DNA from: Novosphingobium sp. CECT 9465
GTDB lineage: Bacteria; Pseudomonadota; Alphaproteobacteria; Sphingomonadales; Sphingomonadaceae
Assembly: GCF_920987055.1 (NCBI RefSeq)
Contig: NZ_CAKLBX010000002.1
Coordinates: 62,001-126,000 of the forward strand
Reading direction: 5' to 3'
DNA: 64,000 bases
The number at the start of each line of letters is the position of its first letter. Positions within the stretch are counted from its first letter, which is position 1. The notes under the pieces are model-generated. The model was not told where the DNA came from, did no database searches, and saw only the letters and a list, made by a program, of their open reading frames with translations. Shown here piece after piece: positions 41,463-46,920 of this stretch. The position numbers and the translations under genes are program-made.

Positions 41463-41649
41463 AAACTCGCTCCTCTCAGCTAAGCCTCACCATCTTTCCC
41501 CTTTGGATCGACCCGACCTTCTCCGGCACGGCTCGCGATGGCCAACGCCCCTTTCGTCTGTGCGATGCCAGATTGTGGGCGATTGCCATGCGCCGCCTGT
41601 TCATTTAGAAACGTGGAGCGATATCCGAACCACGCCGAAAGGTGTGGTC

Positions 41650-42531
41650 ATGAAAAATCTTCTATTTTTGCTGGTCGCTTTGACGCCGACGCCATCATCG
41701 GCGCGCGAAGCCATTCTCGACTTGTTTTCGCCAGAGGCAAAACCGGACTTCGCTGTGCTCGCCCCACAGTTGCGCGGTGCGGTCGATCTCGAGCAATCAG
41801 TGGAACCGCCTCCGGCTCCAGTGGATGCGTTTTCACCCGAGTTGAACGGCGACTTTGAGTTGATCCCTCACAGCTTCACGATCAATCCCCATGCCGCGCG
41901 TCCCGCTGTTCCTTCGTGGATGCGGGCAGGTGCATCATTCATGGGCCCTGCTTCTTCACCCTTCCGCCCTTCGCAGGATGACCCACTCTGCCAGTCCCGG
42001 AGCTTCTTCCCGCGATTTGCTATCAGCAGGGATGCCCAGGCTCGCCGGACAGCCTATTTCAACCTGATCGTCGACGTCGCTTGCGATGCCGGCGTGCCCG
42101 TTGTTCTGTTTGACGCCTTACTGGCGCAGGAAAGCAGATATCGTCCCTTCGCCCGCAGCAGCGCCGGTGCGATGGGCATGGCTCAGCTGATGCCCGGCAC
42201 GGCCCAATATCTGCGTGTCACCGACCCTTGGGATGTTCGGCAAAACCTTGTGGGCGGTGCGCGGTATCTGCGCGAGCAGCTGGATCGCTTCGGGACATGG
42301 GAGCTTGCACTGGCTGCCTACAATGCAGGCCCGGGCCGTGTGGACCAGTTTGTCGGCATCCCGCCGTTTCGTGAGACCCGCAACTATGTGCGCACGATCA
42401 TGGGTTCGATTGCCACCCCGAATTCGACCGGCGGCGTGTCGCTTGCCTCGGCGGCACTTCCCGCTCCCAATGCGTTTCGCCGGGTGATGCTTGCCTCGTT
42501 CGAAGGACGATCAGACGTTCCAGAACACTGA
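41650..42531 (+). CDS. Conjugation lytic transglycosylase
   Basis: A 293-residue secreted muramidase with a signal peptide (MKNLLFLLVALTPTPSSA). The SLT domain covers about residues 135-250: the catalytic Glu is in ALLAQESRYRP, followed by GAMGMAQLMPGTAQ and LALAAYNAGPGRVDQF. Such enzymes open the peptidoglycan for the transfer apparatus (VirB1-like). ATG 41650 has AAGG upstream; the frame extends further but precedes the signal peptide. It converges on a small membrane protein gene with a 21-base overlap. Confidence 0.87.
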   Translation: MKNLLFLLVALTPTPSSAREAILDLFSPEAKPDFAVLAPQLRGAVDLEQSVEPPPAPVDAFSPELNGDFELIPHSFTINPHAARPAVPSWMRAGASFMGPASSPFRPSQDDPLCQSRSFFPRFAISRDAQARRTAYFNLIVDVACDAGVPVVLFDALLAQESRYRPFARSSAGAMGMAQLMPGTAQYLRVTDPWDVRQNLVGGARYLREQLDRFGTWELALAAYNAGPGRVDQFVGIPPFRETRNYVRTIMGSIATPNSTGGVSLASAALPAPNAFRRVMLASFEGRSDVPEH

Positions 42532-42795: not shown

Positions 42796-44274
42796 CTAGT
42801 GCAGCGATGATCGAAGAGAGATACGCATATTCGACGCCCTTGTATCCCCCTGGCCGAATACTGCCTTTCTGCGGCCGAGCAGCGTGTGGCCGAGATTGAG
42901 CTCACCGCTGCGGGCGCGCCGCACCAGCGCCTGCATGTATGCATCGGGCGTCTTGCGGATTTGTCCGTTGGCCAGGTGATGCCCGGTGATCAGCGCGCAC
43001 AGGAGTGCGATCCCTGTGCCCAGTGTCGCACTTGCCCGCGCGGCCGTAGCCTGGCCTATCTGGCAGACGCGAGCGACCTCGTGGAGCTCGTTCAGGCCCG
43101 GTCGGGCTCCAATTTCGACCATGCCATCGATGAAAGGGAAGAGGGCAGGGGCTTCGGCCCAAACGAACCCCGATCGCTGGATGCCGTAGACATCATTCGT
43201 GTCGGCAGAGACCAGCGCGTTGTGGTGGGCCTCGACTGTCTCTTCCTTCAGCCTGTCGGCATCAGGCGTGGTTCGAATGTCATCAGGTTCCTGGCGGCAG
43301 GCGCCCTCTGCCAAGCCGTATACGGATTCAAGAGCTTCTTCAGGGCTGTATTGATGGTGGTCATCCCAGCGCACCCTAGTGTCCTTGGAAGGTGTCAGCG
43401 ACGCAATGTCGTCGAGCGATATGCGCTCTGACAACCGATCAAGCAGCCGGGTCGCGACCTCGGCGAGGCGGCCAAGCACTGCGATCGCGTCCATGGATCC
43501 TTTCCGCCTCTGGTATGTGCGCCGCGCCGCAGCGATCGCATCGAGCTTCTTTCTAGCCTTGTCAGCCCAAAGGTGGCCCATCTCGAACGGCCGCAGCAGC
43601 CGGTACGCGCTGCTTGTTGTCCTTCGAATTTGGTTGGGCAGGATCAGGTTTTGCGCGGCCAGGGCCTTCTCGGTGGCGGCCAGCTGTGTGAGGTAATCCA
43701 CAAGGAGGAGTAGCGGCGCCAGCGACCATCCTGATGCGTCGGAGCGATCCTCGCTGTTTCGTGACCCAAGAAATCGCTTGCCGTTGCCGGCGAGGCAATG
43801 GGGGATGATCAGGCCGTATTCGGCAAGGCGCCTGATGTTCTTGCGCGCGGCGGTCCATCCGATCCGGCATTTGAGATGGTCGTTCGAGGCGGCAATGAGC
43901 GGGCCGCAGCGGCTGTCCCAGTCGATATTCATGGCCGCGATGCTCGCGGCGGCATCGTAAAGATCGCGCCAGACGATTCTCGGAACATCGATCGTCACGG
44001 GCGGCATTCTCGCGAAGGTCTCGATGATATCGAGCAGTTTGCGCCGACGCTGCCTGCCTGCGTTTTCGGTCCCGGTATGTTCGAACCCTCGCATCATCTT
44101 GCTGACGCGCGCTGCATGTCTTGCCCGATCTGCCGGGTCTTCCATGAAAGTGATCATGGTCAGCTGTTCTGTCTCGAGCATCCCCAGTTTTGGCAGACAG
44201 GCGCCGATCGCTGCTGGCCCTCCCCGGCGTCGGCTATTCACCTCCCAGGCTGCCTGATTCTGGACAATAGTCAT
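42796..44274 (-). CDS. repC: RepC-family plasmid replication protein
   Basis: A replication initiator of the RepC type known from rhizobial repABC plasmids. The N-terminal half reads as a DNA-binding replication-C domain (RLAEYGLIIPHCLAGNGKRF); the C-terminal part ends with ALITGHHLANGQIRKTPDAYM and RARSGELNLGHTL, matching the RepC C-terminal domain. The longest frame has 492 residues from ATG 44274, but AAAGG directly abuts that codon, so ATG 44181 or 44157 may be used. There is no repA or repB beside it; parAB lies 40 kb away. Confidence 0.75.
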   Translation of the reverse strand: MTIVQNQAAWEVNSRRRGGPAAIGACLPKLGMLETEQLTMITFMEDPADRARHAARVSKMMRGFEHTGTENAGRQRRRKLLDIIETFARMPPVTIDVPRIVWRDLYDAAASIAAMNIDWDSRCGPLIAASNDHLKCRIGWTAARKNIRRLAEYGLIIPHCLAGNGKRFLGSRNSEDRSDASGWSLAPLLLLVDYLTQLAATEKALAAQNLILPNQIRRTTSSAYRLLRPFEMGHLWADKARKKLDAIAAARRTYQRRKGSMDAIAVLGRLAEVATRLLDRLSERISLDDIASLTPSKDTRVRWDDHHQYSPEEALESVYGLAEGACRQEPDDIRTTPDADRLKEETVEAHHNALVSADTNDVYGIQRSGFVWAEAPALFPFIDGMVEIGARPGLNELHEVARVCQIGQATAARASATLGTGIALLCALITGHHLANGQIRKTPDAYMQALVRRARSGELNLGHTLLGRRKAVFGQGDTRASNMRISLRSSLH

Positions 44275-44426
44275 CCTTTCGCTCCCTCAGTCCTGAGGTG
44301 CGGCACAGACAAAGAACATTGCCCGCAAAATTTGCGAAAAATGCTTGCAAGTTGTCAGGGAGCAGGTAGCTTGCCGGTGTCTCTCGCCACGCTTTGGCGC
44401 GGCAAATTACAGCTTCCTTCGAAAGG

Positions 44427-44447
44427 CCCGGGCGCTGCCCGGGTTTT
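44427..44447 (+). terminator. Rho-independent terminator upstream of repC, plus strand
   Basis: CCCGGGC-GCT-GCCCGGG followed by TTTT. It ends a rightward transcript antisense to the repC leader. In repABC plasmids a short antisense RNA in this position controls repC, so a counter-transcribed RNA is plausible here; its promoter was not identified. Confidence 0.6.
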
Positions 44448-44606
44448 CATGTCTGCGTCGCTGACCTCCCTTTCATATGCACCAGCTGGTGCGGCGATCC
44501 CTGGCAGCGTTCGGGCGCGTTTCATCGCGCGCAGAAGCGCTTGTTTGCCATTCGGTCTGTTGCTAAGAAGCGAGGTGAACTTGGCGCTCTGGCAACAGGA
44601 TGCGTT

Positions 44607-44638
44607 AAAGGGGGTCCCGTTGGCGCGGGGCCCCCTTT
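44607..44638. terminator. Hairpin between repC leader and regulator genes
   Basis: AAAGGGGGTCCC and GGGGCCCCCTTT pair over twelve positions with one wobble, around an 8-base loop. It lies five bases after the stop of the small regulator at 44644, so it probably terminates that leftward transcript; it could act in both directions. Confidence 0.6.
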
Positions 44639-44643
44639 CAATT

Positions 44644-44859
44644 TCAGAGCATCATCGGTTGTCCTTCTGATGGTTCAGGCGATCTGACGCTGAGCGTTGT
44701 CGCCACAATCGCTGCGATGACCGCTTCCCTGGACGAGAGATCATCCCTTTTCAGCTGGTCAATCAATTCGATCGTGGCTGCTGGCAGCCAGATTTCGAGG
44801 GGGCGCAAACCATCCTGACGGCGTTTGCGTCTTTGCTCCGCTTTCCGGTGCTGCGCCAT
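44644..44859 (-). CDS. Small basic protein, possible ribbon-helix-helix regulator
   Basis: A 71-residue basic protein (MAQHRKAEQRRKRRQDGL) whose middle, LEIWLPAATIELIDQLKRDDLSSREAVIAAIV, fits a beta strand plus two helices of the ribbon-helix-helix fold. I choose ATG 44859; the frame is open further upstream. It is the last of three small leftward genes facing the transfer operon. A role in copy control or transfer regulation is inferred from fold and place only. Confidence 0.5.
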   Translation of the reverse strand: MAQHRKAEQRRKRRQDGLRPLEIWLPAATIELIDQLKRDDLSSREAVIAAIVATTLSVRSPEPSEGQPMML

Positions 44860-44949
44860 ATTTGCGCTTCGCTGTGCGGTACAGGACGTCTGCCCGTGAC
44901 CAGTCACGCGGTTCGTCATGCAGCGCGGGCTCGTTTCGCCGTACAAGGC

Positions 44950-45441
44950 TCAAGCATACGCATGTTCAAAACCGCCGCCGTTATGCCGGCTTTCAAGCGA
45001 CATGTGGTGTTTGGCGATGGCCGACGATGTCTTACGGGCGATCGTGTCACACAGGCTTTGACGAATGGTCTCGAACTGCCCTTCGCAGGCTGCGAGTTCG
45101 CTTGGTAGCCGGGCGGCCAGTGCGACCGCGACCAATGCCGTCGTCTCGCAGCATGGGTCTTCGTAGGAGCTAGCGCTTTCATAGCACAGCAGAACGAGGC
45201 CTGCTCGGATAGGGTCGATTTTCAGATGGAGCAGGACGCGTTGGAATTCGTCGATCGTCAGATTTCCATCTTCGACCTTGTCGAAGAACTTTTTACGCCG
45301 ACTTTCTTTGATCACGCCTTCATCGGTCAGTTTGCGCAAGCTTGTGTTCTGCAGCCTCATCTGTTCCTTGATGAGCGCTGCATACAGTTGGTTTACGCTG
45401 TGAGCTCTGCTGGCGACTCCATCTTCCGTCCCTTCGCACAT
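44950..45441 (-). CDS. Small helix-turn-helix-like regulator
   Basis: A 163-residue protein. Residues about 20-75 look like a helix-turn-helix domain (TSLRKLTDEGVIKESRRKKFFDKVEDGNLTIDEFQRVLLHL), an XRE-like arrangement; the rest is helical and of unknown function. GGAGG lies five bases before ATG 45441, fixing the start four codons inside the longer frame. It lies between two other small putative regulators upstream of the transfer operon. Confidence 0.55.
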   Translation of the reverse strand: MCEGTEDGVASRAHSVNQLYAALIKEQMRLQNTSLRKLTDEGVIKESRRKKFFDKVEDGNLTIDEFQRVLLHLKIDPIRAGLVLLCYESASSYEDPCCETTALVAVALAARLPSELAACEGQFETIRQSLCDTIARKTSSAIAKHHMSLESRHNGGGFEHAYA

Positions 45442-45481
45442 GCGTGCCTCCACGATCCCATGTATTCCACTCCATGCAGTT

Positions 45482-45871
45482 TCATAGTTTGACTTTGTCG
45501 ATTTGCATTTTGCAAGCGGAAAATTCGCCTTCTGCTACCAACATTGCGCAGAAAATCAGTGTTTCGCGCACCCCGCAATGAGCCTTGGTAGCGGCGTTCA
45601 GCTCGCCTTTCAGCCGCTCAACAGCCGCATTGTCCGTAGAATTGAGACGGACGTAGATCCGAACGGGTCCGTCCACCGGAAGCAGGGTCTCCAGCGCTGC
45701 GGAATGTCCATCTTTGAGGGCTGGGTACCGCTCCATCGCATGGAGAATGACGTCTTTGAACGTCACAAAGCGCGTCTGCTCAAGGCTGAGTGCTGCGATG
45801 GCCCTGACGATATCTTCGAAGGCGTGTGCGCTGATGGAAATCTCGTGGGCTACATGCGTGCTTTTGCTCAA
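45482..45871 (-). CDS. Putative DNA-binding protein divergent from the transfer operon
   Basis: A 129-residue protein, not recognised. The C-terminal third (VRIYVRLNSTDNAAVERLKGEL then VRETLIFCAML) resembles a ribbon-helix-helix unit. I set the start at TTG 45871 because AAAGGAG lies six bases upstream and because the longer frame (to 46051) would run through the repeat array. It is the nearest gene to that array and is divergent from the pilin gene, so it is the leading candidate for its binding protein, a TraY- or ParR-like role. Confidence 0.5.
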   Translation of the reverse strand: MSKSTHVAHEISISAHAFEDIVRAIAALSLEQTRFVTFKDVILHAMERYPALKDGHSAALETLLPVDGPVRIYVRLNSTDNAAVERLKGELNAATKAHCGVRETLIFCAMLVAEGEFSACKMQIDKVKL

Positions 45872-45964
45872 TTCGATCTCCTTTCTCTCGATGTGGCAGC
45901 GTCTGAACTTGTCATCCTGCAACTGCGCGGTTTCCGGGTCATCCTTTTTGCGCATTTTTACCCG

Positions 45965-46119
45965 TGGGGGCGGATTCCTCTCCACCTTGGGGCTGATTTT
46001 CGCCCGCTGTGGGGCACAAACATCCCCGGTGTGGGTCGCAAATTGGACCACGGTGGGAAATTCTCATTCCCAGGCTGGGAGCGAATCGAATCCTGGGTGG
46101 GGTTCAATTCTGCCCCAAT
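45965..46119. repeat. Array of palindromic units at exact 22-bp spacing
   Basis: Six units start at 45988, 46010, 46032, 46054, 46076 and 46098, each exactly 22 bp after the last; a degenerate seventh at 45965 is 23 bp before. Each begins TGGG, has an AT-rich centre near AATT and ends in a CCCA-like inverse, roughly TGGG-N4-AATT-N4-CCCA. A phase of two helical turns would put all sites on one DNA face. It lies between the divergent regulator at 45871 and the pilin gene at 46229. Likely a cooperative operator array, a transfer-origin accessory site or a centromere. Confidence 0.75.
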
Positions 46120-46140
46120 GTCTCATTTCCTTAGAAATCC

Positions 46141-46169
46141 TGACACTTCGGTGTTGAGAAAAGGTTCTC
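46141..46169 (+). promoter_or_regulatory. Two adjacent hairpins in the pilin leader
   Basis: ACAC-TTCG-GTGT at 46143-46154 forms a small stem closed by a UUCG tetraloop, followed by GAGAA-AAGG-TTCTC at 46156-46169. They lie 60-85 bases before the pilin ATG and may affect mRNA stability or transcription entry. Confidence 0.4.
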
Positions 46170-46228
46170 GTCGGGCGGATTTTGGCTGTGGCGGCAGACG
46201 CCAGCATCCAACCGAAAGGGAAAACTCA

Positions 46229-46546
46229 ATGACAAGTCTCGATCTGAAGAATCGCAGCGGCACGCTTGCTGTTGCGGTTGCGGCGCTCGCGGCCGCCAGC
46301 GTGTTCGGCGCTGATGCCGCAATGGCGGGGGCCGACACGACCTTCAACACCGCTCTCGCCCAGTTCACCGGCTTCCTTGAAGGCTCCGGGGGCCGGATCA
46401 TCACCGTGCTCTCGCTCGCCGGCGGGATCGTGGCGCTTGCGTCGGGCCGCTTTTCGCTCGGTCAGGTCGCAATCCCTGTGGGCGTCGGCGTCGGCGCCGG
46501 GACCGGCATTCCGATCGTCACCGCCTCGGTTACCGGCACGGTCTGA
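46229..46546 (+). CDS. traA: TraA-like conjugative pilin precursor
   Basis: A 105-residue pilin precursor. A long leader (MTSLDLKNRSGTLAVAVAALAAASVFGADAAMA) precedes a short mature part with two hydrophobic helices (about 55-72 and 78-98) and a glycine-rich turn, the TraA/VirB2 pattern. AAAGGG lies eight bases before ATG 46229. It is the first gene of the transfer operon. A gene for an S26 peptidase lies later in the operon, so this pilin may be trimmed further or cyclised. Confidence 0.75.
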   Translation: MTSLDLKNRSGTLAVAVAALAAASVFGADAAMAGADTTFNTALAQFTGFLEGSGGRIITVLSLAGGIVALASGRFSLGQVAIPVGVGVGAGTGIPIVTASVTGTV

Positions 46547-46635: not shown

Positions 46636-46920
46636 TTGGACCAGTATTCGATCCCAAAACATCTCGACGATCCAGAACTGATCGGGTTCTGGACCCTCGA
46701 TGAATTCCTGGTGATGGTCATACCCTTCACCTGGGGCATCCTCGCTCAGCACGTTGTCATCGGGCTCCTTTTGGCCCTGGCTGCGTGGTTCGGCTATCGC
46801 AAAGTCAAAGCTGGGCGTTCGATGCATTGGGTCCTGCATTTTGCCTATTGGCATTTGCCGGGAGAATTCTTCGGTCTGAAGGTCGCTCCGCCATCTCATC
46901 TTCGTGTGATGGCGGGCTGA
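46636..46920 (+). CDS. traL: TraL pilus assembly protein
   Basis: A 94-residue inner-membrane protein of the TraL family, with one or two hydrophobic segments (about 25-55) and the opening YSIPKHLDDPELIGFWTLDE typical of the family. The start is TTG 46636 with GGAG seven bases upstream. It stands between the pilin and TraE genes as in F. It belongs to the inner-membrane base of the pilus machine. Confidence 0.82.
   Translation: MDQYSIPKHLDDPELIGFWTLDEFLVMVIPFTWGILAQHVVIGLLLALAAWFGYRKVKAGRSMHWVLHFAYWHLPGEFFGLKVAPPSHLRVMAG

Follow-up and report, generated by a model that had tools for sequence, protein, structure and literature searches.

The window analysed here, 64,000 nt of Novosphingobium sp. 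CECT 9465 (contig NZ_CAKLBX010000002.1, positions 62,001 to 126,000), contains, just upstream of a conjugative transfer operon, a phased array of seven palindromic units whose position and period of 21-22 bp recur in related plasmids while its palindromic word changes. We give about an even chance to the reading that this is a cooperative, plasmid-specific and exchangeable operator array controlling the transfer operon, with a helix-turn-helix (HTH) protein of the Cro/CI type as its main reader. Coordinates are those of the window; related loci are labelled L. The features that bear on this reading are as follows.

About 45965 to 46119, no strand: phased palindromic array of seven units, recognised by its phasing, by shuffling and by relatives in which every step is 22 bp
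46098 to 46117, no strand: best unit, a near-perfect 20-bp palindrome (TGGGGTTCAATTCTGCCCCA), with the top score in a symmetrised scan
44950 to 45453, minus strand: 167-amino-acid (aa) protein (163 aa if translation starts at the ATG at 45441), of a Cro/CI-type HTH family by family profiles
45482 to 45871, minus strand: 129-aa protein, predicted tandem ribbon-helix-helix (RHH) protein of TraY-like fold, by AlphaFold2 model and structural comparison
45207 to 46166, no strand: exchangeable cassette comprising the HTH half of the 167-aa gene, the whole 129-aa gene and the array, with borders approximate to 60-bp steps
46154 to 46159, plus strand: TTGAGA, possible -35 element of a putative transfer promoter
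46229 to 46546, plus strand: pilin gene of the TrbC/TraA type, which opens the transfer operon (PF04956, 1.5e-5, a weak match below the cut-off)
46636 to 46920, plus strand: traL (TraL match, 6.4e-35)

Anatomy of the array

Six consecutive TGGG words lie at exact 22-bp steps (45988, 46010, 46032, 46054, 46076 and 46098), in the positions given by the original prediction, which had been made from the letters of the window. It had also judged such phasing improbable by chance, and in 60 Markov-1 shuffled versions of the whole 64-kb window, searched on both strands at all periods from 8 to 59, the longest run was 3 in 21 versions and 2 in the other 39. Its description of the arms held for the TGGG on the left, but the CCCA-like right arm was uneven, with CCCA proper only at 46069 and 46114 and, by eye, CCCG, CCCC, GACCA and ATCC ending the units that start at 45988, 46010, 46032 and 46076, respectively. 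The seventh unit (45965), described as one base out of phase, does stand 23 bp from its neighbour in the window, whereas in L001, L002 and L015 the distance is 22 bp and by eye a run of four G replaces the five of the window; read in this way, the array has seven units and the window copy carries a local one-base insertion. Because the units agree solely at their arms and AT-rich centre, the array was absent from the output of Tandem Repeats Finder and of a second repeat search. Scanned on their own, the two weakest units had scores that shuffled windows also reach, and the symmetrised scan found no site above the shuffle range in the rest of the window. A looser array pattern matched the whole genome 18 times, compared with 8 for the reversed control; two of the three matches on the window's contig were the last unit of the array, read on both strands.

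From the end of the array it is about 110 bp to the start codon of the pilin gene (46229) and about 35 bp to the TTGAGA element. In addition to the pilin and TraL matches, the genes downstream matched TraE (9.5e-48) and F-type TraC (2.2e-177), which identifies the operon by homology as a conjugative transfer operon of the F type and bears out the earlier placement of the array in front of such an operon. The pilins of 11 aligned plasmid relatives were 67-99% identical to that of the window.

Conserved period and changing palindromic word

We kept 80 further loci of 395 confirmed relatives, and compared 91 pilin-upstream regions of at most 460 bp each, taken from 94 loci less four without a recognisable pilin motif (L039, L048, L056 and L062), plus the window. 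Among 34 lags tested, the best was 22 bp in 34 regions, 21 in 23, 44 in 11 and 42 in six, together 74 of the 91. When the analysis was repeated with a new seed, 58 of the 91 regions were significant (at most 1 in 100), all of them at a lag of 20-23 or 40-46 bp. For the 77 sequences with both regulator genes and enough downstream DNA, which fell into 38 groups by shared array, 23 groups were significant, again all at these lags. Coding control slices (75, two per group with one too short) were significant in 13 cases, five of them at lag 21, 22, 42 or 44, and their lags were mostly multiples of three, as expected from codons. The loci share kinship, so the period counts do not represent independent events.

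Spacing and word, which the original prediction had expected to be conserved in related plasmids, thus part company: the spacing stays, but the word turns over. Comparison of printed arrays showed that the place of the array is constant and that its palindromic word differs among plasmids, being TGGG..CCCA in the window type, GGTC..GACC in L003 and L017, GGTGC..CACC-like in L027, GTCCC..GGGAC in L004, GCCCCG..CGGGGC in L068, CACGTG-centred in L020, TTnCC..GGnAA in the pNL1-like groups and CGCAAC..GTTGCG-like in L045, with others elsewhere; calls for the weaker arrays are uncertain. L023 and L025, on one contig, are a case of co-resident plasmids whose arrays differ, an observation of little power since most words differ anyway. 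At the TTGAGA element, TTGAGAAA is common to 9 of the 38 groups. Further towards the pilin gene, at about -60 to -25, several clades show by eye a small GC-rich inverted repeat ahead of the ribosome site, which varies in sequence between clades and may form a leader hairpin.

Two regulator families and exchange of the cassette

Leftward from the array, the genes for the 129-aa, 167-aa and 100-aa proteins follow one another on the strand opposite to the transfer operon. Relatives of the 167-aa protein were found upstream of pilin in 86 of the 91 regions and those of the 129-aa protein in 80, with both families on the opposite strand in 77. Beyond the two closest relatives (L001 and L003), aligned proteins were 15-57% identical to the 167-aa protein and 13-41% identical to the 129-aa protein of the window.

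The 167-aa gene, which is single copy in the genome, belongs to a family in which 6 of 29 members match HTH_26 (best 1.7e-5) and some match other HTH models, with weak profile matches to PDB entries such as HigA and SinR; as a family, these proteins can be assigned to the Cro/CI-type HTH. The 129-aa gene, with a TTG start assigned by eye from the ribosome site, gave no Pfam or NCBIfam match. Its AlphaFold2 model, built with 30 of the 80 members of the family, has a pLDDT of 87.5 and shows strand-helix-helix twice in one chain, and the structural matches that rank highest are entries of the F-plasmid relaxosome. The model predicts a tandem RHH in one chain, in agreement with the earlier guess of an RHH protein at this position. 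Sequence searches of the family yielded no RHH match, so that the structure model alone revealed the fold; PF05509 (TraY) was not among the 20 families listed for 30 members, and hhalign against nine TraY proteins gave a probability of 0.4% (E 0.17). RHH repressors of the MetJ/Arc type were not listed in the structural comparison, which excludes nothing.

A natural exchange was found in L017. Compared with the window in 60-column steps, L017 is 92-100% identical outside the cassette, at 44248-45206 and from 46226 on, and 43-87% identical inside, at 45207-46225, where the step at 46166 (87%) marks the border. Inside the cassette L017 is instead 88-98% identical to L003, with 52-88% just to the left (44847-45206). 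The left border divides the 167-aa gene where its HTH half ends, with all differences falling within about the first 76 residues and the remainder identical; the right border gives no polarity, as the window, L003 and L017 are alike downstream. On these alignments, the array, the 129-aa gene and the HTH half have been swapped together in one lineage. The same chimera, apart from a 5-residue gap, is present on another contig (P0021), and in P0019 the HTH half takes a third form while the C-terminal part is nearly unchanged.

Which protein may read the array

Four significant arrays (L033, L043, L045 and L085) are accompanied by a 167-aa relative but by no detected 129-aa gene, and we therefore favour the 167-aa Cro/CI-type protein as the probable reader, although covariation does not settle the matter. 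The 129-aa protein, the reader put forward by the original prediction, fits less well, given these four arrays and the pair L004/L040, in which the array has changed while the 129-aa proteins are 88%, the HTH parts 76% and the C-terminal parts 94% identical. Between L010 and L036/L051/L054/L055/L057, the GGnAA/TTnCC word is kept with little alignable array DNA, and the HTH parts are 94-95% and the 129-aa proteins 76-82% identical.

Several observations weigh against the 167-aa protein as reader. The window's own 163-aa protein alone matches no HTH model, and by eye the half-site spacing varies among words. In word comparisons across 29 of the 38 groups (406 pairs), word similarity correlated least with helix 3 (0.300), followed by the 129-aa protein (0.320), the rest of the HTH (0.364) and the backbone (0.390); the highest value, 0.435 (partial 0.246), was that of the C-terminal half of the 167-aa protein, contrary to what would be expected of an HTH reader. 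The partial correlation was 0.099 for helix 3 given the 129-aa protein and backbone (equalled or exceeded in 92 of 999 permutations) and 0.110 for the 129-aa protein given helix 3 and backbone (44 of 999). When words were predicted from nearest neighbours, mean word similarity was 0.010 for the HTH, -0.003 for helix 3, -0.024 for the backbone, -0.033 for the C-terminal part and -0.054 for the 129-aa protein, a slight advantage for the HTH; when near relatives were excluded, the C-terminal part equalled the HTH (both -0.008). The loci L047 and L057 share the TTnCC word, yet their HTH parts are 71% and their 129-aa proteins 81% identical. No significant array was found in five of the nine loci having a 167-aa gene and no detected 129-aa gene; L078 has a significant array and a 129-aa gene with no detected 167-aa relative, although another HTH-like gene is visible by eye; and L073 and L028 have the array without one or both genes, perhaps owing to contig ends. 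The swap in L017 moved the 129-aa gene as well and cannot discriminate between the two proteins. Finally, the HTH gave no indication of positive selection: the ratio of nonsynonymous to synonymous substitution rates (dN/dS) did not exceed 0.12 in any of 14 pairs, several of which had saturated dS.

GANTC sites in and beside the array

Two places in the window array carry sites of the CcrM type.

45973 to 45977, no strand: GANTC site at the left edge of the array, by motif count
46082 to 46092, no strand: two GANTC sites in the fifth 22-bp unit, of which 46082-46088 fits YGAKTCG in reverse, read from the sequence

In the -320 to -60 regions of the 38 groups, GANTC occurs at 10.6 per kb, compared with 1.57 elsewhere in the loci, with at least one site in 32 groups, whereas the control GATC is present at 4.96 per kb compared with 8.94 elsewhere. 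GANTC ranked first among 16 interrupted palindromes by both measures, at 2.36 over the Markov expectation, but composition explains part of the contrast, TANTA and AANTT being 5.1-fold and 4.4-fold over the rest of the loci. Density was lower inside the arrays (6.3 per kb) than outside (14.7). YGAKTCG was found 52 times in the 9,880 bp of the 38 regions (5.26 per kb; Markov expectation 8.2), compared with 51 times in the other 279,529 bp of the loci (0.18 per kb). In the -120 to -101 bin, 17 of 19 such sites face pilin; on the left side the split is 14 to 10, with no clear preference, and the sole YGAKTCG-type site of the window faces the reverse direction. L009, L011, L074 and others have GANTC clusters at -290 to -240 and -120 to -100 before pilin, many of them fitting YGAKTCG.

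YGAKTCG has been reported for GcrA-activated promoters in Caulobacter, the extended motif not being found in Brevundimonas (PMC7987155). The array region and its edges resemble these GcrA/CcrM-controlled promoters in the concentration of GANTC and YGAKTCG, and the host's own genome encodes GcrA. The sites may act in transfer; the parts of that article available to us do not name plasmid transfer promoters as GcrA/CcrM targets.

Proposed control of transfer and alternatives

We propose that the array may be a cooperative operator between the leftward small-regulator genes (129-aa, 167-aa and 100-aa), which could form one operon, and the rightward F-type transfer operon. Dimers of the Cro/CI-type 167-aa protein would occupy successive palindromes at steps of 21-22 bp, two turns of the helix, on one DNA face, holding the transfer promoter off, presumably by repression rather than activation, and limiting their own synthesis. 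The 129-aa partner of TraY-like fold would assist at the array or link the complex to the relaxosome. With word and reading domain changing together and being swapped as a cassette, related plasmids would keep separate control without cross-reaction between their arrays. The GANTC sites at its edges may make release from the array depend on CcrM methylation once replication or transfer has taken place.

The main rival, which we consider improbable but worth weighing, is that the array is the accessory part of oriT, where TraY-like 129-aa proteins would bind the phased sites as a train and make the DNA ready for the MOBF relaxase; exchange of the cassette would then change oriT specificity, as in the staphylococcal smpO system. 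The relaxase domain of a B. fulva plasmid, 70.8% identical in a match of two pieces, compared with 98.5% for L001 and L002, which share the window's array, would be in line with this. However, arrays are present where the 129-aa gene was not found, and the profile comparison of the 129-aa family with F TraY gave nothing. No 12-mer was common to more than 5 of the 38 groups at -110 to 0, or to more than 6 of 38 at -335 to -110, a search that a core shorter than 12 bases would escape; the relaxases diverge as well, their domains in the 40 records listed being 57-98.5% identical to that of the window plasmid (groups and records overlap partly). The MOBF relaxase gene lies about 84 kb from pilin on the same 192,978-bp contig, a distance that alone does not exclude oriT. 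Two further MOBF relaxase genes are present in the genome (C1:1043965 and C4:11509).

Both proteins might instead share the array, the Cro/CI protein reading the arms and the double RHH the AT-rich centres or spaces, in a mixed filament that would both control the operon and prepare transfer. To this we assign a similarly low probability: the joint movement of both genes with the array in L017 and the co-occurrence of both families in 77 of the 91 loci would suit it, whereas the four significant arrays without a detectable 129-aa gene argue against it. A second role of TraY at the transfer promoter would fit such a filament. TraY of F also acts at oriT (PMC12117103).

It is very unlikely that the array is an activator platform, from which the HTH or the double-RHH protein activates the transfer promoter. 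The spacing of about 35 bp to the TTGAGA element, common to 9 of the 38 groups, is what such a platform could use, but divergent autoregulated layouts are more often repressive. The original prediction also raised a centromere. Such a role in partition, with a ParR-like small protein on the array, would resemble the phased repeats and small RHH protein of parC/ParR but is very unlikely, as the contig carries its own ParA (C2:63250) and ParB (C2:64359) at a distance of about 44 kb; no search was made for a ParM-like partner.

Neighbouring genes to the left

Outside the cassette, the third small regulator gene and its neighbours are arranged as follows.

44644 to 44946, minus strand: 100-aa small protein with a weak MazE-like match (E 0.0015, below the cut-off)
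42796 to 44274: RepC-like gene (NCBIfam RepABC_RepC, 1.4e-12, below the cut-off), between the regulator genes and a 91-aa gene
41497 to 42531: lytic transglycosylase (SLT) gene

An SLT gene also lies near the regulator block in the F plasmid locus (L100, 57-659), and the SLT genes of the window and F have opposite orientations relative to the pilin gene.

Known systems and significance

The arrangement resembles that of RcoLS20 of Bacillus pLS20 (PMC4207663) in having a predicted HTH regulator divergent from a conjugation operon with many sites between them. As described there, the pLS20 switch has a DNA loop and two operators that lie apart, and its regulator is also an activator of its own promoter, whereas here there is one continuous array of 21-22 bp steps, a double-RHH companion and turnover of the word between relatives. 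As in the oriT-smpO system of the pWBG749 family (PMC4652767), conjugation clusters that are otherwise nearly the same differ in a small cassette that joins sites to a DNA-binding protein, and it is the DNA-reading part that diverges most; the sites described there are a mapped oriT with a conserved core, but here the search for a shared 12-base core found none and the swap includes a Cro/CI protein. Like TraY of F, several molecules of which bind DNA as a train (PMC12117103), the 129-aa protein is a predicted one-chain double RHH encoded beside the pilin gene, but its gene is divergent from the transfer operon and no sequence or profile similarity was found. Nothing describing the array was found in the titles and abstract beginnings of open-access literature on sphingomonad transfer control, tandem palindromes, related switches and GANTC with conjugation, and the word oriT does not occur in the available text of a paper on sphingomonad plasmids (PMC3877037).

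More broadly, though we hold this tentatively and think it more apt to fail than to stand, sphingomonad conjugative plasmids may form transfer "immunity groups", in which a diversifying cassette of array, DNA-reading HTH half and TraY-fold partner recombines within a conserved transfer backbone, each plasmid being switched by its own regulator only, with CcrM/GcrA sites at the edges timing release. The transfer operons concerned spread pollutant-degradation genes among sphingomonads, and we found no open-access paper on their control. The combination of fixed spacing, changing sequence and a natural domain swap would make these loci candidates for orthogonal regulator-operator pairs, and would offer a direct test of joint change in DNA-reading domains and their sites as well as a way to test whether cell-cycle methylation is linked to plasmid transfer. 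If the proposal is true, the cassettes would be the conjugation counterpart of the immunity regions of temperate phages.
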